A stretch of 37,637 nt of DNA, taken from positions 1 through 37,637 of the forward strand of contig VXPW01000094.1 of NCBI GenBank assembly GCA_009839325.1, read 5' to 3'. The notes under the pieces were generated by a model. That model did no database searches. It had not been told where the DNA came from and saw nothing but the letters and a program-made list of their open reading frames with translations. This DNA comes from Rhodospirillales bacterium. Lineage in GTDB: Bacteria > Pseudomonadota > Alphaproteobacteria > TMED109. The translations under genes were made by a program, and so were the position numbers. Below, piece after piece: positions 1 to 14,607 of the stretch; the stretch's first letter is position 1; every line of letters starts with the position of its first letter.

Positions 1-76
1 GCGCCACCAAGCGGAACGGGATGTACCGCGTACGGGGCGCACGAAGCAACGTCAGAGATTCACTGAATCGAGGCAT
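1..76 (-). CDS. Start of a truncated gene downstream of lptD, probably surA (periplasmic peptidyl-prolyl isomerase)
   Basis: An ATG on the minus strand opens 6 bases after the lptD stop and stays open to the window edge. It gives about 25 residues beginning MPRFSESLTLL and ending in a basic stretch followed by hydrophobic residues, which could be the start of a signal peptide. In alphaproteobacteria the gene after lptD is normally surA, whose product chaperones outer-membrane proteins including LptD. The visible part is too short to show a SurA or parvulin domain and no strong ribosome-binding site is seen, so the name rests on position only. Confidence 0.35.
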   Translation of the reverse strand, partial: MPRFSESLTLLRAPRTRYIPFRLVA

Positions 77-82
77 GGACGT

Positions 83-2206
83 TCAGAATCCGAGCAGGGT
101 GATTTTCAGACCCACCGAGGACGAGGGAGGAATATCCGACGCGCGCGTGGGCTCCCGTTGAAAATTCAAGGACAGATCCAGGCACTCGTTCCGGAAACTC
201 AGGCCGAGCCCGGCCTTCAGCGTCGAAGAATACGCCGCACGGCCCAAATCCCGAAGATGATAACCCGTCAGCTTCCATTCCGGCGTGATCTGCCAGGCGA
301 CATGGTTTCCCACCTGTTCCGAGCTCGCAGTGGACAGCGACGTCGGGTCGTCATGCAGCCGGACGTACGTGAACGCGGTCTCCACCGGGCCCAGACGTAT
401 CTCCGCGCCCAGCTGGTCGTGCCGGACGCCGGAGACCGCCGGAGACCGCCGGAAGCTCCAGTACCCGGCCCCCACTCCTTCGATCCTCACCGCGACCTCG
501 CCCACGAGATCAGAGGACTGGTCCGCCAGGCCGGTATGAGCGTCGAAGTCGCTCTCTTCAGTCAGGCGCAGCACGCGGCCGATGGTGCCCCGCGCCACGA
601 GGCCTCCCATGCCCTGGTACGTCCCTCGCACCCCCATGTTGAGGCGGACACCGCCTTCCACCCGATCCAGACCGGGGAACCGGTTGGGTTCAAACAAACT
701 GGCATGGCTGAGTTCGACATCAACCGAATCCGTATTGGGAACCGGATCGCGGTTGAGGCCTTCGGGAGCGGCAAGCGCCTGGAGCACGGGTTCGACCACG
801 ACCTGCCCGTCCGCGAACCGCCGCACCAAGGGAAACCGCCAGCCGAGCTCCGCCGAGGGCGCGAACCGCGTAATGCGACGATCGCTGATGGGTTCGTCGC
901 TCTCGCCGGCCCGCACGTCAAAGGCATCTGCCCGAACACGCATGACGGCGTCGAACACGTATCCGGCGTCGCGCGGAAAGCTGCGCTCCCATCTGCCTTC
1001 GATCGACAGCCTGCGGTTGCGCCGACCATCGTCCTGCGCCAGCGCCAAGGCATCACCGACGGAAACGATTCGCCCCCCAAACACGGCTGGGCCGCTGTTC
1101 CAGCGGAGTCGGGCGCGCGGGAAGATGAATGGTACCCGATCATCCTCGGAGAGAATGGAGAGGTTCTGGAACCCATAAACCTCGAGGTCTGCGTTCAGCC
1201 GGTCACCTCGCTTGCGCAGGTACCCGTACTGGGACAAGACGTTGATTCCCCTGCCGAGACCGTAACGCGCAAGGTACGACGCGTCGCTGGCGCGCGTCGC
1301 GTCCCAGCCGACGGACCAGCCCTTGGCCAGACCGATGGCCCCCTTGGCGGAAAGGTGGCCCCGTAGTTCCCGGGCACGGGTGCCGTCGGCCCGCGTCCGG
1401 CTGCCGCGGGTCGCCGAAGCCTCGACGCGGTAGTCGGAACTGATCCCGGCGCGGCGCCACGCTCCACCCAGCAGCAGCCCCTCCCGCGTGGCGTAGCCCG
1501 TGCGCAGCACCAAGTCCTGGGAGGGCCCGAGCGGCAGGAAATAGGGGGTTTCCACCACCATGCCCAGAGCGCGATCCGATCGGACTGCAGGCAGTAGGAA
1601 CCCCTTGGCCCGGCGGACAGACGAGTCCTTGAAACGCGCCCATGGCAGATACATGACCGGGACACCGAAGGCCTCAAGCAGGACGTCTCGATAGGTGATG
1701 GTCCGCTGTCGGGTTTCGTGGGTCGCCGCCGTAGCGCGTACGCGCCAGGGCGGGGGTTCGCGGGAGTCGGGGCACGACTCGCAGCGCGTGTACATGACTT
1801 CCCTGAAATCGGTCCGAACGCCACGGGTTCGCCGCGCCGACCGAGCGGACAGCACGCCACCGGCTGCAAACTGCGAACGCAGTGCCGTGAACGCGCCGCT
1901 ACGCAGGTCATCCGTCAGCTCGACCCGTTCCACGGTGTGGACCGTCCCGTCGGCATCGGTCAGGTTCACGTGCCCCTCGGCGAAGATCCGGCCCTCCGCA
2001 TACCGGTACTCGATCCGGTCGGCGGTCAGCGTGCGGGCTCCCGCACGCAGCCGGACATTCCCACTCGCCTCGACGACCGATGTCTCTTCCCAAACGGTGA
2101 ACCGATCGGCCTCGATTTCCGATTCGGCGGCGGCGGTACTGGGCAGGCACAGCGTGAGCAGCACCATGTAACCGGCCAAGCCGACGCGACCGCCCGGCGT
2201 CATCAT
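83..2206 (-). CDS. lptD: LPS-assembly protein LptD (OstA/Imp), outer-membrane beta-barrel
   Basis: LptD forms the outer-membrane translocon, with LptE, that places lipopolysaccharide in the outer leaflet. The 707-residue product starts with a signal peptide (hydrophobic core at residues 11-22, likely cleavage after AAA at 27). An LptA/OstA-like jellyroll follows (about 30-140, with the EASGNVRL-type repeat), then a long barrel domain ending in Phe, as expected for BAM substrates. Cysteines at 142 and 145 (YTRCESCPDS) and one near the end (675) resemble the cysteine pattern of alphaproteobacterial LptD, where disulfides link the jellyroll and barrel. The length is slightly short for the family. 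The start is the first ATG of an ATGATG pair, overlapping the lptG stop by four bases, so translation is probably coupled. The frame is open further upstream, but that part lies inside lptG. Confidence 0.93.
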   Translation of the reverse strand: MMTPGGRVGLAGYMVLLTLCLPSTAAAESEIEADRFTVWEETSVVEASGNVRLRAGARTLTADRIEYRYAEGRIFAEGHVNLTDADGTVHTVERVELTDDLRSGAFTALRSQFAAGGVLSARSARRTRGVRTDFREVMYTRCESCPDSREPPPWRVRATAATHETRQRTITYRDVLLEAFGVPVMYLPWARFKDSSVRRAKGFLLPAVRSDRALGMVVETPYFLPLGPSQDLVLRTGYATREGLLLGGAWRRAGISSDYRVEASATRGSRTRADGTRARELRGHLSAKGAIGLAKGWSVGWDATRASDASYLARYGLGRGINVLSQYGYLRKRGDRLNADLEVYGFQNLSILSEDDRVPFIFPRARLRWNSGPAVFGGRIVSVGDALALAQDDGRRNRRLSIEGRWERSFPRDAGYVFDAVMRVRADAFDVRAGESDEPISDRRITRFAPSAELGWRFPLVRRFADGQVVVEPVLQALAAPEGLNRDPVPNTDSVDVELSHASLFEPNRFPGLDRVEGGVRLNMGVRGTYQGMGGLVARGTIGRVLRLTEESDFDAHTGLADQSSDLVGEVAVRIEGVGAGYWSFRRSPAVSGVRHDQLGAEIRLGPVETAFTYVRLHDDPTSLSTASSEQVGNHVAWQITPEWKLTGYHLRDLGRAAYSSTLKAGLGLSFRNECLDLSLNFQREPTRASDIPPSSSVGLKITLLGF

Positions 2207-3300
2207 CCATCCTCGTGGTGCAGGATGGCCGCGACACCGAAGACCGCCGGCAGCAGCGCCGGCAGCCAAGCCGCGAGCGCCACCGGAATATCCGTGGTTT
2301 CCCCATAGCTGCGGCAGAAATCGCGTACTGCGTAGAACAACACGCCGCCGAGCAGCGTTCCCGAGTACCGGAGCCACGGCGCGGAACGGCCCAGGCTCGG
2401 AACCATGAATGCCGCTCCCAGCAGCATCATGCTGATGAGCGTGACCGGTAGGGACAGCAACGTGTGGAACTGCATTGCATGTACGCGGGCCGAGAAACCG
2501 AACTGCTCCAGCGTTGCGACATACTGCGGCAGTTTCCACAGCGGGATCATGCCCGCTGGCATGAAACCCTCGTTGATCGCGTGGCGATCCAGCGTGCTGG
2601 CGATCGAGTAGGTGGTTACGGGCCTGACTTCGCGTTCCCGGTCGACGACCACGGCGTTCCGCAGATTCCAGTTCCCCCGGCCATCCAGCACGGCCGTGTC
2701 GGCATTGATCCATTCGTCCAGGTGGTCGCCCCGCCCGAATCGAAAGACCACGACGTCGGCCAGCCGCATGGTGGCCGGATCGATCGTCCGCGCGTGGACG
2801 ATCGTCTCTCCTGCGGGACCGGTCTCACGGATCCAAAAGCCGGAACCCAGCAATGTCAGCCGGCCCGTATCGCGGCCGAAGTGACTGGCCTCCAGGCTGT
2901 CCAGGCGCGTTTGCGTAGCCGCGCTGACGGGATTTCCCACGAACAGCCAACCGGCGCCGATGACGGCGGCGATCGCGATGCCAGGTAGGACGAGGTGCAG
3001 CCACGAAATACCCGTGGCGCGCACCGCCACCAACTCGCCATGACGACCCAGGTGGCGGTAGGAGAGCATGGCGCCGATCAACACGATCGCGGGCAGGAAG
3101 TGCTCGATCAGGAAGGGAAAGTGGAGGAGCGACATCCCGCCCACGAGCCCGAGGTCACCGATGTCCCGCGCAACGGCCCGGCGCCAGAACTCGACGAAGT
3201 TTCCGGCCAGAACCAGCGCGGAAATCACCGCCAGCCCGATGGCGATGCCCGCGACGTGGCGCCGGGCCAGATAGGCCCAGATGCGGATCGACGTCGTCAT
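2203..3300 (-). CDS. lptG: LPS export ABC transporter permease LptG
   Basis: LptG is one of two inner-membrane permeases of the LptB2FG transporter, which extracts LPS and pushes it along the LptC-LptA-LptD bridge. The 365-residue product begins MTTSIRIWAYLARRH, a typical amphipathic start. A transmembrane helix follows (about 17-36), then further hydrophobic segments, a periplasmic jellyroll-like middle region and a block of C-terminal helices, the YjgP/YjgQ family layout. The ATG overlaps the lptF stop by four bases (ATGA) and the stop overlaps the lptD start the same way. The middle gene of lptF-lptG-lptD is lptG in this class. Distinguishing it from LptF rests on order and length. Confidence 0.92.
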   Translation of the reverse strand: MTTSIRIWAYLARRHVAGIAIGLAVISALVLAGNFVEFWRRAVARDIGDLGLVGGMSLLHFPFLIEHFLPAIVLIGAMLSYRHLGRHGELVAVRATGISWLHLVLPGIAIAAVIGAGWLFVGNPVSAATQTRLDSLEASHFGRDTGRLTLLGSGFWIRETGPAGETIVHARTIDPATMRLADVVVFRFGRGDHLDEWINADTAVLDGRGNWNLRNAVVVDREREVRPVTTYSIASTLDRHAINEGFMPAGMIPLWKLPQYVATLEQFGFSARVHAMQFHTLLSLPVTLISMMLLGAAFMVPSLGRSAPWLRYSGTLLGGVLFYAVRDFCRSYGETTDIPVALAAWLPALLPAVFGVAAILHHEDG

Positions 3301-4415
3301 GCGCCGCTCCTTGAGAACCGCAGCGAGCGGCGGCGAACGTCGTGCACGTGCACCCAGGCGAGGGTCAGCGCGATCGCCGTGATCAGGGCTCCGTAGGAAA
3401 TCGGGATGAGGACCGGAAACGACGCGTATGCCCACGGCGCGGCAATAAAGATGACCTCCAGCGTCACGGCCGCTACGCTCGCCGACAGCAGCGGGCGCAG
3501 GGGGTGCTCCCGCATCCGGTGTTTGAGGAGAAACGGCGTCACGCCGGCCAGCGCCATCAACAGCAGGAAAAGCGGTGCCTGCAACCGGCGTTGCGCCTCG
3601 GCCTCGAACTGCCGGCGGACGGACGTCGCCGTGTCCGGGGGCGCATCGAGAAGCTCCCACAGCGATCGCTCGGCCACCGAGCGCGTTCGCCGCTTGCCGG
3701 ACGAGCGATCTCCCGCGGTGACCTCAAAGACGTACCGGTCGAAACTCAGCGTATGGATCTGATCGCGATTCGGTCCCATTTCGTGCCGGCTGCCCTCTTG
3801 CACCACGAACCGCGGCAACCCGCCGCTGAACTGGCTCCGTCCTTCCCGCGCCACGATTGAGACCGAGCGGCCGGGGTCGCGGCCGTCGTGAATCAGAAGG
3901 CCCCTGAGCGTCCCGTCGGGCTCGCGTTCGCGCACGAACACGGTGAGCCCCTGGACCGGCGACAGGAACGTCGCCTCCTGCGGCAGCAGATTGGCGTAAC
4001 TGCTGCGGATTTCCTGAATTTGGTCGCGATAGCGATGGTACCCTGCGGGCGCCAGCCAGGTTTCCAGCACCAGGGCCGCGATCCCCGCGAGCAGGCCGAA
4101 GACGAGCGCCGGCGTCATCAACTGCAGGTTGCTCCGGCCGGTCGCCTGTAGCGCCACGAGTTCCGAGTCCAGGCTGAGCCTTCCGTAGGCGCTCGCCGTC
4201 GCGAGAAAGACCAGGAACGGCAGCGCAAATGCCAGATCCCGCGGTGCGTAGGCGATGAGCAGGCCGACAAAGGCCTCGAGTGAGAGGCCTTTCGAGAGCA
4301 CGACGTCGATCAGGCGCAGGGAAGGAATCACGATGATCAGGCTGATCAACGCGAGCAGGACGAACGCATAGGGAGCAGCGAGCTGGCGGGCGATGTAGAG
4401 GGACAACCTGTACAT
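3297..4415 (-). CDS. lptF: LPS export ABC transporter permease LptF
   Basis: This is the partner permease of LptG in the LptB2FG inner-membrane LPS extractor. The 372-residue product starts MYRLSLYIARQLAAPYAF and has the YjgP/YjgQ layout: paired N-terminal membrane helices (about 13-35 and 48-75), the family segment LDSELVALQATGRS on the cytoplasmic side (about 78-95), a periplasmic domain and C-terminal helices. It is the first gene of a minus-strand operon, 44 bases from a divergently transcribed binding-protein gene. The ATP-binding subunit LptB is not in the window. Confidence 0.92.
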   Translation of the reverse strand: MYRLSLYIARQLAAPYAFVLLALISLIIVIPSLRLIDVVLSKGLSLEAFVGLLIAYAPRDLAFALPFLVFLATASAYGRLSLDSELVALQATGRSNLQLMTPALVFGLLAGIAALVLETWLAPAGYHRYRDQIQEIRSSYANLLPQEATFLSPVQGLTVFVREREPDGTLRGLLIHDGRDPGRSVSIVAREGRSQFSGGLPRFVVQEGSRHEMGPNRDQIHTLSFDRYVFEVTAGDRSSGKRRTRSVAERSLWELLDAPPDTATSVRRQFEAEAQRRLQAPLFLLLMALAGVTPFLLKHRMREHPLRPLLSASVAAVTLEVIFIAAPWAYASFPVLIPISYGALITAIALTLAWVHVHDVRRRSLRFSRSGA

Positions 4416-4459
4416 GGCGGGCCGGGATCCTTGCTCGAAGGCGGACCCTGATATGTACC

Positions 4460-5623
4460 ATGGTCGTGGCAGCGGGTGTCCGTCTGGCCACCTGGTCCAC
4501 GCGCTGGCGCGCGCGCCTATCCGGTGAGGCAGTCATCAGACCGACCCTCCTGCTGACCTGTGCAGTGACGCTCCTCACGGTCTCTGCCGCGGTCGCCGAC
4601 ACCGCTGTCGTCAAGGTGTACAACTGGTCCGACTACATTGATCCGGAAATCCTTTCGGGCTTCGAGGACGAAACCGGCATCCGGGTCATCTACGACGTTT
4701 TCGACTCCAACTACACCCTCGAAACTGAATTGCTCGCGGGGAACAGTGGGTATGACGTCGTCGTGCCGAGCGGCGCGTTCCTCGCCCGACAGCGCCTGGC
4801 CGGCGTGTTTCAAGCGCTCGACAAGCGCCTGCTGCCGAATCTCCGGTACATGAGCGCCGAATTCATGACGCAGATCCGCCGGTGGGATCCGGGCAACCGC
4901 CACGGGGTGCCCTACCTGTGGGGCACGACCGGGCTTGGCTACAACGCCCGGCAGATCGCCCAACGCGATGCCGCCGCTCCCACCAACTCATGGCGGATGC
5001 TGTTCGACCCGGCGGTCGTCTCCAAGTTCGCCGACTGCGGGGTGTATGTCCTGGACGAGCCTGACGAAGTCATTCCAGCCGTTCTCAGCTTTATCGGCGA
5101 GAACCCGGACAGCCAGGATCCCGACGTGATCGGACGGGCGGAACCCGTCCTGATGGCCATCCGGCCCTATCTCCGCGGTTTTCACAACTCCGAGCAGATC
5201 CAGGCGCTGGCGGGCGGCGACATCTGCCTGGCCATGGGGTGGTCAGGCGACATGCTGCAGGCGCGTGCACGCAGCCTGGAAGCCGGCAACGAAGCCGAGA
5301 TCCGCTACGCGATCCCGAAAGAAGGAGCCCTCATGTGGATCGACATGATGGCGATCCCGGCAGACGCCCCCAACCCGGAACACGCGCATCGGTTCATCGA
5401 CTACGTCATGCGGCCGGACGTGATTGCGGCGATCTCCAATCATGTGTTCTACGCAAATGCCAATGCCGCCGCATGGCCACACCTCGACGCCGGGCTGATC
5501 GCGGAACCGGGTGTTCATCCGTCCGACGAGGTACGGGCAAGCCTCTACGTCGCAAGCCCGTACCCACCGGAGGTGCAGGAGTTTGTCAGCCATCTGTGGG
5601 CGCGTGTCCGCGCGGCCCGCTGA
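4460..5623 (+). CDS. Polyamine-type ABC transporter substrate-binding protein (PotD/PotF family), orphan
   Basis: The 387-residue product resembles periplasmic spermidine/putrescine-binding proteins. After a signal peptide (hydrophobic core about 28-44, likely cleavage after AVA at 46) it begins VKVYNWSDYID (about 51-61), the characteristic first strand of PotD/PotF. Further family segments are the DVVVPSG stretch, the YLWGTTGLGYN stretch and the GWSGDM stretch. No permease or ATPase gene is adjacent, so it is an orphan binding protein here. The only ATG gives an unusually long basic n-region of about 27 residues with no clear ribosome-binding site, so the true start may lie slightly downstream. 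The neighbouring decarboxylase is convergent and may also concern amine metabolism, but that link is inference. Confidence 0.82.
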   Translation: MVVAAGVRLATWSTRWRARLSGEAVIRPTLLLTCAVTLLTVSAAVADTAVVKVYNWSDYIDPEILSGFEDETGIRVIYDVFDSNYTLETELLAGNSGYDVVVPSGAFLARQRLAGVFQALDKRLLPNLRYMSAEFMTQIRRWDPGNRHGVPYLWGTTGLGYNARQIAQRDAAAPTNSWRMLFDPAVVSKFADCGVYVLDEPDEVIPAVLSFIGENPDSQDPDVIGRAEPVLMAIRPYLRGFHNSEQIQALAGGDICLAMGWSGDMLQARARSLEAGNEAEIRYAIPKEGALMWIDMMAIPADAPNPEHAHRFIDYVMRPDVIAAISNHVFYANANAAAWPHLDAGLIAEPGVHPSDEVRASLYVASPYPPEVQEFVSHLWARVRAAR

Positions 5624-5635
5624 ACGACCGGACGG

Positions 5636-5657
5636 CCGCGGACACGTGTTTCCGCGG
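5636..5657 (+). terminator. GC-rich hairpin after the binding-protein gene
   Basis: A 7-base-pair stem (CCGCGGA with TCCGCGG) with an 8-base loop begins 12 bases after the stop codon, between two convergent genes. There is no T-run, so it would be a weak or Rho-assisted terminator. This is structural inference only. Confidence 0.3.
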
Positions 5658-5755
5658 TGCTGCGCGCTGTAGCCGCGGCGCTGCCAGGACCGATCCCGGA
5701 ACAACCCTCGACCCGGCGGACTACGGGCGCTTGCTTCCGCTTGCCGCGGACGCCG

Positions 5756-7249
5756 TCAAGGTGCGCTGACGTCGCCCGCCGACGCTGGCGGGGCGCAACG
5801 GCTGGCCGTACGCGCGATGTGATCCCAGGCCTCGGCAACGTGTCGAGCTTCTGTCGCCGGTGCCCCGATCGCTAGCCGCAAGGCGACCCGGCCTCGGACC
5901 TCGCACGGACTGAGGTACGCCAGCCCGCCTTCGTTCACCCGCGCCAGCAGGTCCCGATTGACCTGGTCGAGCTGCGCTTCGTCGTCCAGGCCCTCCGGGC
6001 AATACCGGAAGGTGACGAGGGACAGGGACCGCGGTGCGGCCAAGGTGAAACCAGGCGTATTTCGAATCTGCGTCTCGAGGTCCCGGGCCAGGCCGATGTG
6101 GCGACGAACATGCGCCTGCAGCCCGGCGACGCCGTAGTGCCGGATCACGAACCAGAGCTTCAGCGCCCGGAACCGCCTACCCAACGGAACGCTCCGGTTG
6201 CGATAGTCGACGATCTGGTCACCCGTTGCCGTCCTGAGATACGCCGGCGATACCGTGAGAGCTCGTTCGACTTCTCCCATGTCTCGGAAAAACTGGGCGG
6301 AGCAGTCGAAGTTGGTGAGCAGCCATTTGTGCGGGTTGAACACCAGGCTGTCGACGTCGTCGACCCCGGCGAGCATGTGCCGGAACTCCTCGCAAACGAG
6401 GGCGCTGCCAGCCCATGCGGCATCCACGTGAAGGTACAGGCCTTCCCGGCGCGTGATCGCAGCGATGTCCGCGAGCGGATCGATTCCGCCGACGGCCGTT
6501 GTACCCAGGGTGGCCACCACGCACGTAGGGATCAGTCCAGCTTCCCGATCCTGCCGGATCATGTCCGCAAGCGCCTCGGGTCGCAGCGCGAACGACGAAT
6601 CCGTCGGGATCTTCCGCAGATTTTCCCGGCCCAGCCCCGCGACCATCATTCCCTTGTCAATGGAGGAGTGCGTCTCGGCGGATGCGTAGACTGTATGGGC
6701 GCGATGCCCCGCAAGACCGCGAACCGCGGCCGCGCCGTCGGGGGCCCGCTCGCACGCGGCGAGCTGGGCCACCAGCGTGGCGCTTGAAGCGGAGTCCTGA
6801 ATTACGCCTTCGAAGCCCTCGGGCAGGCCCAGCATCTGTCGGAGCCATTCCAGGACCCGCGTTTCAAGTTCGGTCCCCGCGGGCGACGTCTCCCAGGCCA
6901 TGCAGTTGACCCCGAGAACCGCGGTCAGCATCTCCGCCAGCACGGACGGCGGGCTGGCATTCGCCGGGAAATAGGCAAAGAACCGAGGATGCTGCCAGTG
7001 GGTCACACCCGGGAGAATGTCCCTCTCGAAGGCAGCGAAGATCTCCTCCATGGGTTCGCCCTTCGCCGGAGGCTCCGCAGGCAGCAAGCGGAGGACGTCA
7101 CCTGGCCGAACTTGCGCGCGAACCGGTCGCTGCTCGATACCAGCCAGATAATCCGCCATCCAATCGACAAATGCGTGCGCATGAGCGCGGAAGGTGTCCG
7201 AATCCACGATCAGGTCTCCTGGCCGTACTCCCGAACAGCGGCGAGACAT
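5756..7249 (-). CDS. PLP-dependent aromatic-L-amino-acid decarboxylase family protein (group II)
   Basis: The 497-residue product belongs to the group II pyridoxal-phosphate decarboxylases (DOPA/tryptophan/tyrosine decarboxylase type), which convert an aromatic amino acid to its amine. Visible landmarks are the N-terminal [16 protein letters not shown] block (about 87-102), the stacking histidine in AETHSS (194), HVDAAWAG with the aspartate that contacts the pyridine nitrogen (276), and NPHKW with the Schiff-base lysine (308). The start was chosen at ATG 7249 because AGGAG lies five bases upstream; the frame is open 38 codons further but that part looks non-coding. The exact substrate cannot be read from sequence. 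It is divergent from the cox-type cluster and convergent with the polyamine-binding protein. Confidence 0.88.
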
Positions 7250-7421
7250 CGTTCTCCTGCCTCCGTCCGGGTCACGCGCTGATCCTGCCACGGCCGGGAC
7301 GAGGTACGTAGGGGCAAGCGGGAACTGGCGAGGCCATGAAGCGCCAGCTTCGGGGGGCTGCATCCCGACGAGCGGGGGCTGCGCCGTGCGGGACAGCGGC
7401 CCCGCTCCCTGTTCCTGCGAA

Positions 7422-7505: not shown

Positions 7506-7991
7506 GTGGCAACCGACCAGTCCGCTTCCATTACCTTCCGCGTGAACGGCAAGGATGTTGAAGGCCATGCGGAACCGCGCACGCTGCTCGTGGACTTTCT
7601 GCGTGACACTCTCCGGCTTACCGGCACGCATATCGGCTGCGACACCAGTCAGTGCGGGGCATGCGTGGTGCACCTCGACGGCATCGCCGTAAAGTCCTGC
7701 AGCGTGCTGGCGGTGCAGGCGGCCGGCCGAGAGGTCCACACCATCGAGGGGCTGGCCGACGCCGACGGGTCGCTCCACCCCATGCAGGAGGCGTTCCGCC
7801 AACATCATGGCCTGCAGTGCGGGTTCTGTACCCCGGGCATGGTGATGACGGCAATCGAACTCGCGCAGTCGGCCGAACCGTTGACTCCGGAGCGGGTACG
7901 CGAGGGCCTTGAAGGCAACATTTGCCGGTGTACCGGCTACCACAACATCGTGCAGGCGGTGCTGGCCGGTGCCACCGCCATGCGCCAGTAG
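7506..7991 (+). CDS. coxS: CO dehydrogenase-type small subunit, two [2Fe-2S] clusters (CoxS/CutS)
   Basis: The 161-residue protein carries electrons from the molybdenum site to FAD in xanthine-oxidase-family hydroxylases such as aerobic CO dehydrogenase. The N-terminal plant-type [2Fe-2S] domain has cysteines at 45, 50, 53 and 65. The C-terminal four-helix domain has cysteines at 105, 108, 140 and 142 (CGFC and CRC). Length is typical. The start is GTG 7506, preceded by GGAGGA; a longer frame upstream is not supported. It is complete and is followed after 11 bases by the FAD subunit, with no large-subunit gene between or beside them. It could serve another family member (for example an aldehyde or isoquinoline oxidoreductase), but the downstream coxD, coxE and coxG favour the CO dehydrogenase branch. 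Confidence 0.92.
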
Positions 7992-8002
7992 AGGGCCGCC
8001 CC

Positions 8003-8794
8003 GTGTATCGCTTCACCTACCATCAGCCGGTCACCCTGAACGATGCAGTTCAGCTCGCCTCATCCACGGAAGACGGCAGCTATCTCGCCGGCGGCATGAC
8101 GCTGCTTCCTACGATGAAATTTCGCCTCGCCAATCCCAGCGACCTGATCGACCTCGGAGGCGTGGAGGAATTGCGCGGCATCGCCGAGGAGGATGGACGA
8201 CTCCGGATCGGAGCCTCCTCCACCCACGCCGAAGTTGCCGCCTCCGCACTGGTTGCAGACCGCATGCCGGCGCTGGCGGAGCTCGCCGGCCGGATCGGCG
8301 ATCCGGCCGTTCGGAACCGGGGAACCATCGGCGGATCCATCGCGAATGCAGACCCAGCGGCCGACTATCCGGCGGCATTGTTGGCGCTCGACGCAGAAGT
8401 GATCACCAACCAACGCACGATCGCCGCTGCGGATTTCTTCACGGGCTTTTTCTCGACCGCGCTGGCGCCCGGCGAGCTCGTCACTGCCGTCCGCTTTGCC
8501 ACACCGGCCCAGGCGGCCTACCAAAAGGCCCCCAATCCGGCTTCGCGATTTGCGCTGGTCGGCGTGTTCGTCGCCCGACACGCGGACGGGGTACGCGTGG
8601 CAGTTACCGGCGCCGGGCCATGTGCCGCCCGCTATCCGGCGTTCGAGGCTGCCCTCGACGCATCGTTCACCCCCGAGGCGGCGGCCGGCGTACCTGTGGA
8701 AGACGCGGGCCTCACCAGCGACCTGCACGCGAGCGCCGCTTACCGGGCACACCTCATCGGCATCATGGCGAAGCGGGCCGTCGCAGCCTGCTAG
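8003..8794 (+). CDS. coxM: CO dehydrogenase-type medium subunit, FAD-binding (CoxM/CutM)
   Basis: This 263-residue subunit binds FAD and passes electrons to the external acceptor. It starts at GTG 8003 (VYRFTYHQP), with GAGGG about eight bases upstream. The two FAD signatures are present: AGGMTLLPTMK (about 29-39) and TIGGSIANADPAAD (about 108-121), with the CO_deh_flav_C-type region after about residue 170. In the first signature the usual AGGHS is AGGMT, a small deviation. The length is near the low end of the usual range. It sits directly after coxS in the same operon, an order (S then M) that leaves out coxL. Confidence 0.9.
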   Translation: MYRFTYHQPVTLNDAVQLASSTEDGSYLAGGMTLLPTMKFRLANPSDLIDLGGVEELRGIAEEDGRLRIGASSTHAEVAASALVADRMPALAELAGRIGDPAVRNRGTIGGSIANADPAADYPAALLALDAEVITNQRTIAAADFFTGFFSTALAPGELVTAVRFATPAQAAYQKAPNPASRFALVGVFVARHADGVRVAVTGAGPCAARYPAFEAALDASFTPEAAAGVPVEDAGLTSDLHASAAYRAHLIGIMAKRAVAAC

Positions 8795-8811
8795 CGCGGG
8801 ACGCCTTGACA

Positions 8812-9702
8812 ATGCCGCACGCCGTGCCGGCTACGGTCGACGCCACGCTGGAACTGCTGCAGGCGGGACGCTACGTCGCCGACCGGGCCTTGGCCACGGT
8901 CGTCTACCTGGCCCTGCGCATGGAACGTCCCCTGCTTCTCGAAGGGGAAACCGGTGTGGGCAAGACGGAGATCGCCAACGTGCTGGCGGCCGGACTCGGA
9001 CGCAAGCTGGTGCGCCTTTCCTGTCACGACGGGCTCGATCTCGCGAGCGCCGTCTACGAGTGGAACTACCCGGCGCAGATGCTGGCCCTCCAGTCGGTGA
9101 AGAAGGACGCCGACCCACCCGATCTGTATACCGACCAGTTCCTGGTACGCCGCCCCCTGCTGGAGGCCATGGAATCCCACGAGGGTGGCCCGCCGGTACT
9201 CCTGATCGATGAGGTTGATCGCGCCGACGCCCCCTTTGAAGCGCTCTTGCTTGAATTGCTCTCCGATTTTCGTGTCACCATTCCGGAGTTCGGCACCGTC
9301 GTTGCAGCCAGCCCGCCGCCGGTCGTTCTCACGTCCAATCGGACTCGCGAGGTTCACGACGCTCTCAAACGGCGCTGCCTCTACCACTGGGTGGGATACC
9401 CGGAAGCCGCGCGCGAGTTCGAGATTCTCCGAGTGCGTCAACCCGAGGCACCGCCCGCACTGGCACGGGAAGTCGTTGCCTTCGTCCGAGAGTTGCGCTC
9501 GACCGATCTGTTCAAACCTCCGGGTACCGCCGAGACGCTGGACTGGGCGCATGCATTGATCGCGCTGGACTGCACGCGACTCGAGGACGACTCCGTCGAT
9601 CAGACTCTCGGCGTGCTCCTGAAGTACCAGGACGACATCGACCAGGTCCGGGGGCCCGAGGCCGCGCGCCTCCTGACCGAGGCACAACGGAAAGCAGCCT
9701 GA
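8812..9702 (+). CDS. coxD: MoxR-type AAA+ ATPase CoxD
   Basis: CoxD-like MoxR ATPases act with CoxE as chaperones that mature the metal centre of CO dehydrogenase. The 296-residue product has Walker A GETGVGKT (45-52), Walker B VLLIDEVDRAD (129-139) and a sensor-1 region VVLTSNRTRE (about 171-180). The stretch SCHDGLDLASAVYEWNYP (about 70-87) is typical of the CoxD subgroup. It starts at ATG 8812; upstream codons in the same frame overlap coxM and are not real. The coxE start follows its stop after two bases, consistent with a stoichiometric pair. Confidence 0.9.
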   Translation: MPHAVPATVDATLELLQAGRYVADRALATVVYLALRMERPLLLEGETGVGKTEIANVLAAGLGRKLVRLSCHDGLDLASAVYEWNYPAQMLALQSVKKDADPPDLYTDQFLVRRPLLEAMESHEGGPPVLLIDEVDRADAPFEALLLELLSDFRVTIPEFGTVVAASPPPVVLTSNRTREVHDALKRRCLYHWVGYPEAAREFEILRVRQPEAPPALAREVVAFVRELRSTDLFKPPGTAETLDWAHALIALDCTRLEDDSVDQTLGVLLKYQDDIDQVRGPEAARLLTEAQRKAA

Positions 9703-9704
9703 TC

Positions 9705-10883
9705 ATGGCAACCCCCGGCCCCGCAAGCGGGCGTCGAGGCGGACACATTGCGGCCAATCTGCTCACGTTTATTCGGCTGCTCCGTCGTGCTGGCATGACA
9801 CTCGGGCCCGCCGACGGCATCGCGGCGGCGACCGCGCTCCGAACGGTTGGCCTCCGCCGGCGTGACGACGTCTACTGGGGCCTTCGTGCCACCCTGGTGC
9901 GTCGCGCCGCCGACGTCGACGTGTTTGATGACGCGTTTCGGGCGCTGTGGCAGGGGATCGCCCTTGAACCGGTCGGTCAGTCGAGCGTCTTCGGGAAGCG
10001 ACGTCGCCCTGCCCCCGCCCAACGGCGGGTCGCGGAGGCTCTCGGCGCGCTGCCCCCGTCAAGCGAAGGTCGGGAATCTCCACCGACGGCTACTGCCCTC
10101 AGCGCGTCCCGTCTGGAACGCCTGGGCTCCATCGACGTCGCGGACATGAGTGTGGAAGAGATGCACGCGGCTCAGGAAGCGGTCCAGAAGCTGGTTCGGC
10201 CGCTGGGCGACCTGCCGACGCGACGCTTCCGGACCACGCGGACCGGACGGGACGGCATCGACCGTCGCGGCACCCTTCGGCTGGCGTCGCGAACCGGCGG
10301 CATTCCGCTGCGCCTGCAGCTTCGCCAGCGTCGCACCCGCCCGGTCACCGTGGTCGTGCTGTGCGACATCTCCGGTTCCATGTCCGCCTACACCCGCATG
10401 CTCTTGCACTTCATGCACGCATTGGGCCAGACCCGCCGTCGAGTATTCAGTTTCGTCTTCGGTACACGCCTCACCGACGTCACCCGGGCTCTCCGCCAGG
10501 GTGATCCCGACCGCGCGGTGCAGCGCGCCGTGAGCCAGGTGCATGACTGGTCCGGCGGCACCCGTATCGGAGCGGCATTGCGGTCATTCAATCGGCTTTG
10601 GTCCCGCCGGGTTCTCACCGACGGCGGGGTGGTCTTGCTGGTGACCGACGGTCTCGAACGCGACCCGGGTGTGGATGTCGGGGCCGAGGCCGCGCTCCTG
10701 CGGCGCTCGTGCCGTCGTCTCGTTTGGCTCAATCCACTCATGCGCTACGCTGCCTTCGAGCCGCGCGCCGGAGGAATGGCCGCGATCGCAGCTCACGTTG
10801 ACGAGTCCCGGACAGTCCATACTCTCGACAGCCTCCGTGCCCTGGCAGATTCTCTGGCCACCGGGCCTGTCCGCCACGCCTGA
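9705..10883 (+). CDS. coxE: VWA-domain protein CoxE
   Basis: The 392-residue product is the von Willebrand factor A partner of the MoxR ATPase CoxD. An N-terminal helical region of about 200 residues precedes the VWA domain. Its metal-ion-dependent adhesion site is visible as DISGS (Asp221, Ser223, Ser225), followed by the SGGTRIG threonine and the VTDGLERD aspartate. In characterised systems CoxD and CoxE work together to install the sulfur and copper of the active site, but here the client large subunit is not encoded nearby. It starts at ATG 9705, two bases after coxD. Confidence 0.9.
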   Translation: MATPGPASGRRGGHIAANLLTFIRLLRRAGMTLGPADGIAAATALRTVGLRRRDDVYWGLRATLVRRAADVDVFDDAFRALWQGIALEPVGQSSVFGKRRRPAPAQRRVAEALGALPPSSEGRESPPTATALSASRLERLGSIDVADMSVEEMHAAQEAVQKLVRPLGDLPTRRFRTTRTGRDGIDRRGTLRLASRTGGIPLRLQLRQRRTRPVTVVVLCDISGSMSAYTRMLLHFMHALGQTRRRVFSFVFGTRLTDVTRALRQGDPDRAVQRAVSQVHDWSGGTRIGAALRSFNRLWSRRVLTDGGVVLLVTDGLERDPGVDVGAEAALLRRSCRRLVWLNPLMRYAAFEPRAGGMAAIAAHVDESRTVHTLDSLRALADSLATGPVRHA

Positions 10884-10900
10884 CGTTTACGGGAACAATC

Positions 10901-11275
10901 ATGTCGGATTCCGCCCCGCCGCCACGGGAAGACACCGCCACCCAGGCAACCCCGACGGACGAAGTGCTCGCCCAAGCGCAGCGTTGGCGGGAAGCGGGCC
11001 AACCGGTCGCGCTGGCCACTGTCGTCGCCACGTGGGGGTCCAGTCCCCGTCAGCCGGGAAGTCAACTCGCCGTCAACGCCGATCTCGAAATCGTCGGCTC
11101 GGTGTCGGGCGGATGCATCGAAGGGGCCGTGATCGGCGAAGCCCAGGCGGCCATGGCCGACGGCAAGGCCCGGCTTCTTGAGTTCGGCGTGACGAACGAA
11201 CGCGCCTGGGAAGTCGGACTCGCGTGCGGCGGGCGGATCAAGGTGCTTGTCGAACGGGTCGGCGACTCCCCGTGA
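10901..11275 (+). CDS. XdhC/CoxI family protein, N-terminal half
   Basis: XdhC-type proteins bind molybdenum cofactor, support its sulfuration and deliver it to xanthine-oxidase-family enzymes. This 124-residue protein holds only the N-terminal XdhC_CoxI domain: the WGSSPRQPGSQLAV segment (about 45-58) and GSVSGGCIEGAV (about 66-77), whose cysteine is a conserved feature. GGGA lies about nine bases before the ATG. The C-terminal Rossmann half is a separate gene that overlaps by four bases (GTGA), so the two probably work as one split protein. Both halves look intact, arguing against a recent frameshift. Confidence 0.88.
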   Translation: MSDSAPPPREDTATQATPTDEVLAQAQRWREAGQPVALATVVATWGSSPRQPGSQLAVNADLEIVGSVSGGCIEGAVIGEAQAAMADGKARLLEFGVTNERAWEVGLACGGRIKVLVERVGDSP

Positions 11276-11970
11276 AGGACGCCACGCTGGCGCGGATTCT
11301 CGAGGCACGCGCCGCCCGCACACCGCTTGCCGTAGTCACCAGAGTAAGTGATGGCGCGCAGGGAATCGTGACATTCGACGGCGCGGACTCCTCGCTGCCC
11401 GAGGAGACTGTGGCGGACGCCTCGCGGCGCCTCACGGACGACGAGAGCGGAACCGTCGTGGCCGACGGGGAGACGTGGTTCGTCCATGCCCACACTCCGC
11501 CGTACCGTATGGTCGTCGTCGGGGCCGTCCACATTGCCCAGCCGCTGGTGAAGATGGCGGTTCTGGCCGGCTTCGATACGATCGTGATCGATCCGCGGAG
11601 CGCGTTTGCCACTGCCGAGCGGTTCCCGGGCGTCGAGGTTGTCGACTTGTGGCCCGACGAGGCGATGGCATCGCTCCGGCCGGACTCTCGTACTGCCGTG
11701 ATCACGCTCACCCACGACCCTAAGCTCGACGACGCTGCTCTCGGCGTTGCGCTTCGAAGTCCTGCCTTTTTCGTTGGTTCGCTCGGCAGCACGCGCACGC
11801 ACGCGGCCCGCTGCAAGCGCCTCCGTCGGGAAGGTTTCTCAGAATCTGAGATCGCCCGTATCCATGGTCCGGTCGGACTTGCGATCGGCGCACGGGCTCC
11901 GGCCGAGATCGCCGCTGCCATTCTCGCCCAGGTCGTGAGCGTGCGGCGCGGCGGCGCGGCGGCGAGTTGA
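11272..11970 (+). CDS. XdhC family protein, C-terminal Rossmann half
   Basis: This 232-residue protein carries the XdhC C-terminal Rossmann-type domain. It shows the nucleotide-binding-like stretch VVVGAVHIAQPLVKMA (about 82-97), the IDPRSAFATAERF block and the GSLGSTRTHAAR block. An N-terminal segment of about 70 residues precedes it. Initiation is at GTG 11272, inside the stop of the N-terminal half (GTGA overlap). The downstream MoeA/MobA fusion overlaps its own stop. It probably acts with the upstream half to bind and hand over molybdenum cofactor. Confidence 0.87.
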   Translation: MKDATLARILEARAARTPLAVVTRVSDGAQGIVTFDGADSSLPEETVADASRRLTDDESGTVVADGETWFVHAHTPPYRMVVVGAVHIAQPLVKMAVLAGFDTIVIDPRSAFATAERFPGVEVVDLWPDEAMASLRPDSRTAVITLTHDPKLDDAALGVALRSPAFFVGSLGSTRTHAARCKRLRREGFSESEIARIHGPVGLAIGARAPAEIAAAILAQVVSVRRGGAAAS

Positions 11971-13556
11971 CGGTGGATTTCGGCCTGCAGCCAGCCTCGA
12001 ACTGCGAAGGAGCCATACTGGCCCACTCGCTAAGGGTGGCCGGCACCAAGTTCCGCAAAGGTCGCGTACTGAGCGCTGCCGACGTCGACGCCTTGTGCCA
12101 GGCTGGCATCGATCGGGTGACGGTGGCCCGGCTCGGCCCTGACGACGTGGACGAAGACGCTGCAGCCACCACGCTCGCAATGGGGGCGACCGGCGCAGGC
12201 ACCCAGATTCGCAAGCCATTCGGCGGGCGGGTCAATGTCATGGCAACGGCCGACGGACTGGTCCAAGTCGATGCCGGCGCGATGCAACGCTGCAACCTGG
12301 TTTCGGAGGCCATCACGATCGCGACGCTGGCCGATGGGGCGCGAGTCCGTACCGGTGATCTCGTCGCGACGATCAAGATCATTCCCTTTGCCGTGCCCAG
12401 AGCCGACGTCGAGACGGCCTGCACGTCCGCCGAGGGCCTGCTCTCCGTGGCGCCGTTCCGGCCCCTCTCCGTCGGGCATGTCCTGACGACTCTTTCCGAC
12501 ACGACACCCAAGCTTCTGAAGCTGTCCCGGACCGGTGTCGGCAACCGGATCGTGGAACTCGGCGGCACAGTGGCAGAAGAACGCACGGTTCCGCACGAAA
12601 CGGCACAGCTTGCCGACGCCCTGACTGAGGCACTCCGTGGCAAGCCAGATTTGGTACTTGTGAGCGGCGCCTCGGCAATCGTCGACCGGCGAGACGTGAT
12701 CCCGGCGGCCATTGAACGGGCCGGCGGACAGGTCGATCACTTTGGCATGCCGGTGGACCCGGGCAACCTGCTCCTATTGGGCACCCTGCAGTCCACTCCC
12801 GTCATTGGTCTCCCCGGCTGCGCGAGAGCTCCCGCCCGCAACGGGCTGGACATGGTTCTCGAACGATTTGCTGCCGATCTCGATGTGGACTCGGCCGCTG
12901 TCGTTGCCATGGGAGCTGGCGGCCTGCTGAAGAAAACGGCCGCGCGCCGGCGTCAGAGCCGGGCCCCGCGCATTGCGGCCGTGATCATGGCCGCGGGCCG
13001 ATCGCAGCGAATGCGAGGCGGCAACAAGCTCTTGGAATCAGTCGACGGCCAGCCTCTGGTTGCCAGGGCTGCCAGCGCCGCCATCGCCTCCGAGGCCGCT
13101 CCGGTCATCGTTGTGACGGGTCATCAACCGGACAAAGTCGCTGCGGTACTCGACGGGCTGGACGTCAAGCTCGTCCACAACAGCGATTTCCGGGAAGGGC
13201 TCTCGTCGAGCGTGCATGCGGGCCTTGCGGCGGTTCCCGCAGGCCACGATGGGGCCATTCTGATGCTGGCCGACATGCCGGATGTGGACGCCGGATTGGT
13301 CGACCAAATGATGGCCGCGTTTGACCCGATTGAGGGGCGGGCCATCGTGGTCGCCACGCACAACGGGACCCGCGGCAATCCGGTGCTGTTCGCGCGCCAG
13401 TACTTCGCGGAGATCCTGCGCGTGACCGGCGACACGGGTGCCCGTCACGTCGTGGACTCCAACGACGAGGCGGTGTGTGAGGTCGAGTGCGGCACGAGTG
13501 CCCCGCTGGTCGACCTCGATACCCCCGAGGCCCTGGCGAAGTGGCGCGGTCGTTGA
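11967..13556 (+). CDS. Fusion of MoeA-like molybdopterin-binding domain and MobA-like cofactor nucleotidyltransferase
   Basis: The 529-residue protein has two parts. Residues 1 to about 333 form a molybdopterin-binding domain of the MoeA/MoCF type, including KLLKLSRTGVGNRIVELGG and the LVSGASAIVDRRDVIP region that normally contacts molybdopterin. From about 335 a MobA/MocA-like NTP-transferase follows with MAAGRSQRMRGGNK (the LAAGxSxRMG signature), an MLADMP metal-binding aspartate stretch and a GTRGNPVLF block. Such a protein is expected to make the cytosine-dinucleotide form of the cofactor used by CO dehydrogenase-type enzymes. The start is either TTG 11967 (TTGA overlap with the upstream stop) or GTG 11973. 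The nucleotide specificity is inferred from context. Confidence 0.87.
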   Translation: MTVDFGLQPASNCEGAILAHSLRVAGTKFRKGRVLSAADVDALCQAGIDRVTVARLGPDDVDEDAAATTLAMGATGAGTQIRKPFGGRVNVMATADGLVQVDAGAMQRCNLVSEAITIATLADGARVRTGDLVATIKIIPFAVPRADVETACTSAEGLLSVAPFRPLSVGHVLTTLSDTTPKLLKLSRTGVGNRIVELGGTVAEERTVPHETAQLADALTEALRGKPDLVLVSGASAIVDRRDVIPAAIERAGGQVDHFGMPVDPGNLLLLGTLQSTPVIGLPGCARAPARNGLDMVLERFAADLDVDSAAVVAMGAGGLLKKTAARRRQSRAPRIAAVIMAAGRSQRMRGGNKLLESVDGQPLVARAASAAIASEAAPVIVVTGHQPDKVAAVLDGLDVKLVHNSDFREGLSSSVHAGLAAVPAGHDGAILMLADMPDVDAGLVDQMMAAFDPIEGRAIVVATHNGTRGNPVLFARQYFAEILRVTGDTGARHVVDSNDEAVCEVECGTSAPLVDLDTPEALAKWRGR

Positions 13557-13586
13557 GGGCTCAGCGGCCCAAATCGGAGTCGTCGA

Positions 13587-14192
13587 TCAGCTGAACGACG
13601 CCAGCACCAGGAGTACCGCCAGTATCCCCAAGGCCACCAGCAGCGGAATTTGCCAGCGCGGTCGTGGGCCACGGGATGGAGGCTGTTCTCGCGGGGCGAC
13701 CGAATCCTCCGCCGGCGCATCCCGGGAGGAAGCCTCTGCCGGTGCCGCTTCCGCCGCGACGATGTCGGCGAAGGAATTGAAGAATGAGGTGGAGTACTGG
13801 TCCATCGCGCCGCCAATCAGCCGGGAACCAAGTTGGGCCAAACGGCCGCCGACACCGACCTCCACCGTGTAACTCAGTACGGTGCCGCCGTCGTCACTCT
13901 CGGCCAACGCTACGCGCGCCGATCCCTTCGCGAAGCCGGCGGCCCCACCCTTGCCTTCGCCGACCAGAACATAGCTCTCGGGAGGTTGTACTTCCGACAG
14001 CTTGACTGATCCGGAGAACGCTGCAGATACCGGACCCACCCGGGCCCGCACTCGGGCTTCGAACGCGTCGGGACCCACCGAGGCCAGATGCTCACATCCG
14101 GGAATGCACCGCTTCAGAACCTCCGGATCGTTCAGGGCATCCCAGACCCGGACCCGCGGAGCCGGGATCTGGAATTGCCCGCTGAAGTCGAT
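13587..14192 (-). CDS. coxG: CoxG-type SRPBCC protein with C-terminal membrane anchor; apparent ATC start
   Basis: CoxG recruits CO dehydrogenase to the cytoplasmic membrane. The 201-residue frame reads (I)DFSGQFQIPAPRVRVW, aligning with the canonical M-D-x-[ST]-G start, then ALNDPEVLKRCIPGCEHL (about 19-36), the SRPBCC core, a Pro/Glu-rich linker (about 140-180) and a C-terminal hydrophobic helix (about 183-199). No ATG, GTG or TTG exists between the upstream in-frame TAG and residue 39. ATC at 14192 sits where the family Met should be and has AGGAG nine bases upstream, so ATC initiation or a base error is likely. The first usual start, GTG 14078, would delete the conserved N-terminus. It lies 28 bases after a cytochrome c gene and is convergent with the cox-type operon. 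Confidence 0.85.
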   Translation of the reverse strand: MDFSGQFQIPAPRVRVWDALNDPEVLKRCIPGCEHLASVGPDAFEARVRARVGPVSAAFSGSVKLSEVQPPESYVLVGEGKGGAAGFAKGSARVALAESDDGGTVLSYTVEVGVGGRLAQLGSRLIGGAMDQYSTSFFNSFADIVAAEAAPAEASSRDAPAEDSVAPREQPPSRGPRPRWQIPLLVALGILAVLLVLASFS

Positions 14193-14220
14193 GGTCGGGG
14201 GCTCCTAGCCTGGCGCCCGC

Positions 14221-14607
14221 CTAACCGCCGAACTGCCTGAGGTACGCAATGACGTCCGCGCGGTCGTCAGGCTTCTTCAGGCCCGGAAAGATCATCTTGG
14301 AGCGGGCAACAACCTGTTTCGGATTGGTAATCCACGTGTCCATCAACTCGTCGGTCCAGGTCTTGCCTTCCTCGCCCAACGCCTTCAGGCCCTTGGAGTA
14401 CTTGTAGTCAGGCCGGTTGGTCCCCAGGGCCGTATCAAAGACGCCCCAGAGGTTAGGACCAACGCGATCCTTGCCCCCTTCGTCAACGGTATGACACGCC
14501 TTGCACTTCTGGAAGACTTTCTCGCCATTCGCGGCGTCGCCTGCCGAAGCCATGCTGGAAATGGCCAAGGCGCCAAGAACGGCCGCGACCGTGAGAACTC
14601 GAATCAT
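14221..14607 (-). CDS. Class I cytochrome c (c2/c550-like), exported
   Basis: The 128-residue product has a signal peptide (hydrophobic core about 7-18, cleavage after ASA near 22), a single haem site CKACH (35-39), the GPNLWGVF stretch (50-57) and an axial methionine in SKMIFPG (Met105). The C-terminal DRADVIAYLRQ helix completes the cytochrome c2-like fold. It would act in the periplasm as a soluble electron carrier. The start was chosen at ATG 14607 with GGAGGG about ten bases upstream. It is the first gene of a two-gene unit with coxG, which suggests it may accept electrons from a cox-type enzyme, but this is only contextual. Confidence 0.92.
   Translation of the reverse strand: MIRVLTVAAVLGALAISSMASAGDAANGEKVFQKCKACHTVDEGGKDRVGPNLWGVFDTALGTNRPDYKYSKGLKALGEEGKTWTDELMDTWITNPKQVVARSKMIFPGLKKPDDRADVIAYLRQFGG

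Follow-up and report, generated by a model that had tools for sequence, protein, structure and literature searches.

A CoxS-CoxM gene pair without a large-subunit gene

The DNA analyzed here, referred to as the window, is a contig of 37,637 nucleotides (VXPW01000094.1, assembly GCA_009839325.1) from a Rhodospirillales bacterium, and its subject of interest is a gene cluster at positions 7506 to 14607 that resembles those of CO dehydrogenases but holds no gene for the catalytic molybdopterin subunit. On the forward strand, a gene for a CoxS-type [2Fe-2S] small subunit (S; 7506..7991, 161 amino acids, GTG start, TAG stop, Pfam Fer2 and Fer2_2) precedes one for a CoxM-type FAD subunit (M; 8003..8794, 263 amino acids, GTG start, Pfam FAD_binding_5 at E 6.5e-50), leaving a junction of 11 bases (7992..8002); in many relatives of other families coxL, which encodes the large catalytic subunit (L), lies between or beside these two genes. 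Both genes are intact, as the first-pass annotation of this DNA had stated, with Fer2_2 almost whole (1-74 of 75), Fer2 partial (2-53 of 77) and FAD_binding_5 almost whole (2-167 of 170); the C-terminal CO_deh_flav_C match of M, at 23.8 bits, falls slightly below the cut-off of 25.5. Purine-rich sequences that fit the separate ribosome-binding sites described for the two genes are present, GGAGG before S and AGGG before M.

A tblastn search of the whole window with three CoxL-type proteins from the same genome (L1, L2 and L3, described below) and one IorB-type protein gave no match at E<=1e-3, and a search of the whole genome with both large-subunit Pfam domains gave none on contig C8, which bears out the initial observation that the window has no CoxL-type gene. 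The assembly is a metagenome-assembled genome (MAG) in 111 contigs that is 92% complete, and such an assembly could in principle have collapsed or dropped a coxL gene between S and M. However, the spacing of 11 bases is identical in all four of the other same-genus records read (L104-L107), and an S-M pair without L (L168) lies on OY282363.1 (G064), from another lineage, a record titled chromosome that spans 3.4 Mb in one piece. Because the spacing is kept within the genus and a single-record chromosome also lacks L at this place, the absence is not an assembly gap; collapse at the junction, which the first-pass annotation had already thought unlikely, is contradicted by these relatives, and we give an artefact of this kind practically no chance. 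The cluster is truly without a catalytic-subunit gene.

Downstream of M on the same strand lie genes for a CoxD-type MoxR-like AAA ATPase (8812..9702, Pfam AAA_5) and a CoxE-type VWA protein (9705..10883, Pfam VWA_CoxE at E 2.1e-61), both with a maturation role by homology, an XdhC/CoxI N-terminal domain protein (10901..11275, Pfam XdhC_CoxI), an XdhC C-terminal Rossmann domain protein (11224..11970, Pfam XdhC_C), the real start of which is probably nearer 11272, and a fusion of a MoeA-like domain with a MocA-type cytidylyltransferase domain (11967..13556, Pfam MoCF_biosynth and NTP_transf_3), assigned to cofactor maturation by homology. CoxG (13587..14078, Pfam COXG) and a cytochrome c (14221..14607, Pfam Cytochrom_C, with an open frame extending to 14769) follow on the reverse strand; the cytochrome c, encoded next to coxG, is a candidate electron acceptor. 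The Pfam matches agree with the gene assignments made at first pass for the cluster and for the flanking PLP decarboxylase (5756-7363). XdhC is indeed in two frames, but the split is an ordinary trait: of the 24 named loci (see below) in which either domain was found, 23 encode the N- and C-domains separately. The top NCBIfam models, all below cut-off, are glyceraldehyde dehydrogenase gamma for S, glyceraldehyde dehydrogenase beta for M, the MadB family for the CoxD-type gene and TIGR03310 for the fusion.

The S-M cluster is carried by the same-genus genomes G001-G005, one of which (G003) aligns over the full stretch with 93% identical DNA, and the full set of S, M, CoxD, CoxE, XdhC, MoeA/MobA, CoxG and cytochrome c was read in four other genus records. 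The M neighborhoods of seven further family genomes (G007, G010, G011, G013, G014, G020 and G026) run coxG-S-M, then XdhC and MoeA/MobA, and none of the seven contains an L; in four family members (G007, G010, G014 and G020) the cytochrome c gene is co-oriented with coxG, S and M.

Unlinked large-subunit genes in the same genome

Two L genes, L1 (contig C99:113089-115395) and L2 (contig C56:36688-39027), lie elsewhere in the genome (G000); the 1.6 kb around each contains no S, and neither of the two contigs carries an M. A third, L3, forms a complete, separate L-S-M set on contig C81, and there are three IorB-type proteins, each with an S. The genome has only two FAD-subunit genes, those of the window and of C81. 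The first-pass annotation had called for a genome-wide search for CoxL-type genes and offered three readings of the gap. Two of them, a large subunit encoded elsewhere and several large subunits sharing one accessory set, find support and come down to the same answer, and an unrecognized partner is not needed. The top NCBIfam models for L1 and L2 are, as for S and M, glyceraldehyde dehydrogenase subunits below cut-off.

Both genes were found in all seven genus genomes searched, L2 being broken in G004, where it occupies two overlapping open frames in different phases (L284 / L291), a frameshift or a sequencing error. Across the family, 18 of 21 genomes have an L1-type L (>600 bits) and 15 have M at E<=1e-50, with a partial match in G023; both occur in 13 (14 with the G023 fragment), and on different contigs in all 13. 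In the three window-genus genomes read (G000, at L008:6857-12277, G003 and G006) L1 is flanked by MmgE/PrpD and class V aminotransferase genes; the Pfam assignments are those of the G003 copies, which have a cyclophilin-like gene in between. At the L1 site of the low-GC relative G013, Pfam finds genes for ribonucleotide reductase, a YccV-like protein and cytochrome c'; a conserved L1 neighborhood across the family, sought by comparing the window genus with G013, was not found.

The active-site loops, whose classification had been proposed as a check, are form II-like, AYRGAGR in L1 and AYRGAGK, one residue off form II, in L2. The form I loop AYXCSFR is in neither, and the order is S-M without L rather than coxMSL; nor does the window show the form II order S-L-M, since L is absent from the S-M junction and from the rest of the window. 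The label "CO-dehydrogenase-type" given to the cluster stands as a statement of homology and does not extend to CO itself, since the candidate partners have form II-like rather than form I loops. CO oxidation is therefore not the expected activity, and CO is not a likely substrate.

L1 has the catalytic glutamate of the GxGExG motif, and L2 has a glutamine (GVKGAGQAG; L010:7686-10028) at a position that phmmer alignments match to the glutamate of 4ZOH, CO dehydrogenase and quinoline oxidoreductase. In GAOR2 the residue given as catalytic is Glu672 (PMC4726530). Counting as L2-type any sequence whose best match is L2 rather than L1, glutamine is present in all 17 distinct genomes in which such a sequence covers the site (19 rows, two genomes appearing twice), and these span five families (f1, f60, f61, f69 and f90). 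All 156 other L rows with a residue at the site have glutamate, and three rows are gapped there. One search set comprised 17 genomes, and in three of these (G226, G258 and G387) the proteins are nearer L1 and have the glutamate, one of them combining it with the loop AYRGAGK. Among the titles and abstract openings of the open-access literature searched, no natural change of this glutamate to glutamine is described.

Large and FAD subunits across the Alphaproteobacteria

We surveyed 115 alphaproteobacterial genomes, drawn evenly at a requested completeness of 95% and including the window's own genome (92%), with L scored at E<=1e-150 and M at E<=1e-50; mostly no more than nine L candidates per genome were scored, which makes the L counts lower bounds, and the compared genomes are mostly MAGs or of unstated origin. 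L was found in 53 genomes and M in 54, M being present in 53 of the 53 with L and absent from 61 of the 62 without it. M is single-copy in 53 of its 54 genomes (G110 has two, giving 55 M in all), whereas L ranges from one to at least nine copies per genome, with a total of at least 179, and outnumbers M in 45 of the 53. The single-contig genome G100 has at least nine L and one M, arranged as one S-L-M set and eight further L, and the flanks of all eight, as read, contain neither S nor M. The same holds for the additional L genes read in G149 (three of three read, four found) and G125 (six of six read, seven found), and in G127, which has an L-less S-M-D-E cluster, eight L were found and all six of those read are unlinked.

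One of the unlinked L genes of G100 (L266) stands amid GntR, glyoxalase, FAA-hydrolase and CMD-family genes, and a relative of L2 (L264) lies near LigB-type dioxygenase and GMC oxidoreductase genes; among the other unlinked L genes of that genome (eight listed, some neighbors run in Pfam), no clear pathway emerged. Genome G056 has three tandem L genes (L259:8469-15643) with no adjoining S or M, and its S-M cluster, also L-less, is on another contig.

Outside the family, S-L-M is common. Of 80 named loci found with M, L adjoins S or M in 59; in 14, each read for 2.6 kb or more to either side, there is no L within 1.5 kb on the same strand, the only range and orientation scored; and seven were cut short or had no M match in the annotation. 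Four of the 14 L-less loci belong to the window genus; S was detected in 13 and not in one, and L177 has an L 4.5 kb away. The first-pass annotation had named relatives with L in an otherwise ordinary operon as one finding that would undo its interpretation. This applies in part: many relatives do have S-L-M, as these 59 loci show, yet L outnumbers M in 45 of the 53 survey genomes with L. In G064, the genome with the single-record chromosome, the four unlinked L genes read have no adjoining S or M, and AAP38 (G069), with S-M and no L, has one unlinked L at E<=1e-60. Some L-less clusters have a long gene directly after M, which in one case (L168:10903-14046) matches PF11739, YdbH-like, and long frames occupy the same place in L113, L143, L172 and L173. 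Three S-M-L clusters (L161, L162 and L176), with M 54-57% identical, come from MAG records titled Bordetella parapertussis, which look like mislabelled environmental bins.

A FastTree phylogeny was built from 139 of 145 L proteins, leaving out five IorB-type rows and one L shorter than 700 amino acids; it carries a long-branch warning and an odd letter make-up in the low-GC rows. The L1 proteins of the genus, the family L and 12 others form a clade of 36 rows with no operonic row (support 98), although two of its rows lie so close to the end of a contig that they do not count as unlinked, and a separate clade of 38 rows is wholly operonic (support 100). Given this separation, the unlinked lineage does not look like one recently displaced from an operon. 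In a tree of S and M together (rows above 38% identity to the window M with S within 4 kb, and 15 contig-edge rows outside the count), there are 10 changes between the L-adjacent and L-less states, at least four of them forced by well supported branches, and the window groups with Azospirillum S-L-M and AAP38 (support 93). A history consistent with these trees is that unlinked L proteins began by using the S-M pair encoded in an S-L-M operon, the operonic L being lost later in several lineages, including this genus.

A probable sharing of one S-M pair by several large subunits

Since the genome has a single S-M pair without an L, L and M co-occur over genomes, L outnumbers M, and GAOR2 and GAOR3 provide a precedent, we consider it likely that S-M is a constant electron-transfer module common to interchangeable large subunits encoded elsewhere, a sharing that is apparently widespread in Alphaproteobacteria. 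In a xanthine-oxidase-family enzyme of this kind, the window would supply the constant half, S and M together with one maturation set, and the catalytic half would come from unlinked genes, from L1 and probably from L2, each assembling with the same pair. Electrons would pass from the substrate to the Mo-pterin of L, the two [2Fe-2S] clusters of S, the FAD of M and then an acceptor, perhaps the cytochrome c encoded beside coxG. The cluster without L, the unlinked L genes and their co-occurrence with M across genomes are observed; the assembly, path, acceptor and substrates are what they suggest.

Several observations weigh against this sharing. Among the survey genomes, G089 (98% complete) has M but lacks an L at E<=1e-150, and nothing of the kind adjoins its S-M; among 12 genomes searched via the named loci, G068, to which the S-M of L155 belongs, lacks an L at E<=1e-60, and in G070-G072, whose S-M loci (L182, L177 and L115, the last at a contig edge) have no adjoining L, the remaining L genes are each accompanied by an S and M of their own. 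Within the family, four genomes with an L1-type L lack M at E<=1e-10 (G008, G015, G019 and G024; 79, 91, 61 and 55% complete), two have M and no L1-type L (G009 and G014), and G012 lacks both; the completeness of these seven is 55-91%. The same-genus genome G006 (92% complete) retains L1 and L2 and has no window-type M, but it also lacks the adjacent stretch 1-5700, and a lost contig is thus likely, although the loss may be real. The L1 neighbors differ between the window genus and the low-GC family member, the S+M tree sets the window genus apart from the low-GC members, which have long branches, and the sharing in bacteria is inferred from genomes. Most of the genomes in which M or L occurs singly are incomplete.

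The strongest competitor, possible but in our view rather doubtful, is that S-M serves L1 only, as a plain split operon for one enzyme, and that L2 has another partner or is no functional oxidoreductase. The 13 same-family genomes with one L1-type L and one window-type M each would fit this, as would the single L of AAP38, the missing catalytic glutamate of L2 and its two frames in G004; however, L2 is present in all seven genus genomes searched and broken in just one, no second S-M without an L is available to it in this genome, and many other genomes have several L to a single M. That S-M works with an unrelated, unrecognized partner, or alone as an electron carrier, seems improbable: at the thresholds used, no L1-type L accompanies M in G089, G009, G014 or G068, but all except one of the 54 survey genomes with M have L, and the cluster keeps maturation genes of the kind used for cofactor insertion into L. 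We regard decay, with L lost and S-M left as remnants, as more improbable still, for although the S+M tree has the L-less state originating several times, the gene set is complete in the four other genus records and G003 is conserved over the whole stretch.

Extending the shared S-M module beyond this genome, we lean toward the view that the alphaproteobacterial form-II-type "CO dehydrogenase" is a plug-in system, in which one S-M chassis with its maturation genes would serve many unlinked L for different substrates, including the glutamine-bearing L2 lineage. Such a system would account for the lack of any one substrate that can be assigned to form II clusters, and annotation based on counts of coxSLM operons would overlook many catalytic genes. 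If one S-M serves many L, a strain deprived of M would lose the activity of all the enzymes together, and the sharing is therefore directly testable.

Compared with form I CO dehydrogenase (coxMSL), the cluster belongs to the same superfamily and has the same subunit plan but differs in loop and gene order. Form II Cox, whose role is described as unclear, is set apart by the loop AYRGAGR and the gene order coxSLM (PMC13203968); the likeness extends to the S, M, CoxD, CoxE, XdhC and CoxG homologues and the partner loops, whereas here there is no L between S and M, and L is unlinked and more than one. Among the titles and abstract openings of the open-access literature searched, neither shared bacterial S and M subunits nor sharing in form II Cox is described. 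The closest parallel is in Sulfolobus tokodaii, from which GAOR2 and GAOR3 were purified with different L and the same M/S pair, their L genes being distant from the M and S genes (Wakagi et al., PMC4726530). Both systems have adjoining M and S genes without L and L genes at distant loci, and the glyceraldehyde dehydrogenase models, though below cut-off, are the best for the S and M of the window and for L1 and L2 alike. The archaeal system is biochemically proven and has two L per shared M/S pair, whereas the bacterial one, proposed from genomes, has a maturation cluster attached and includes a genome where a single M stands against nine or more L.

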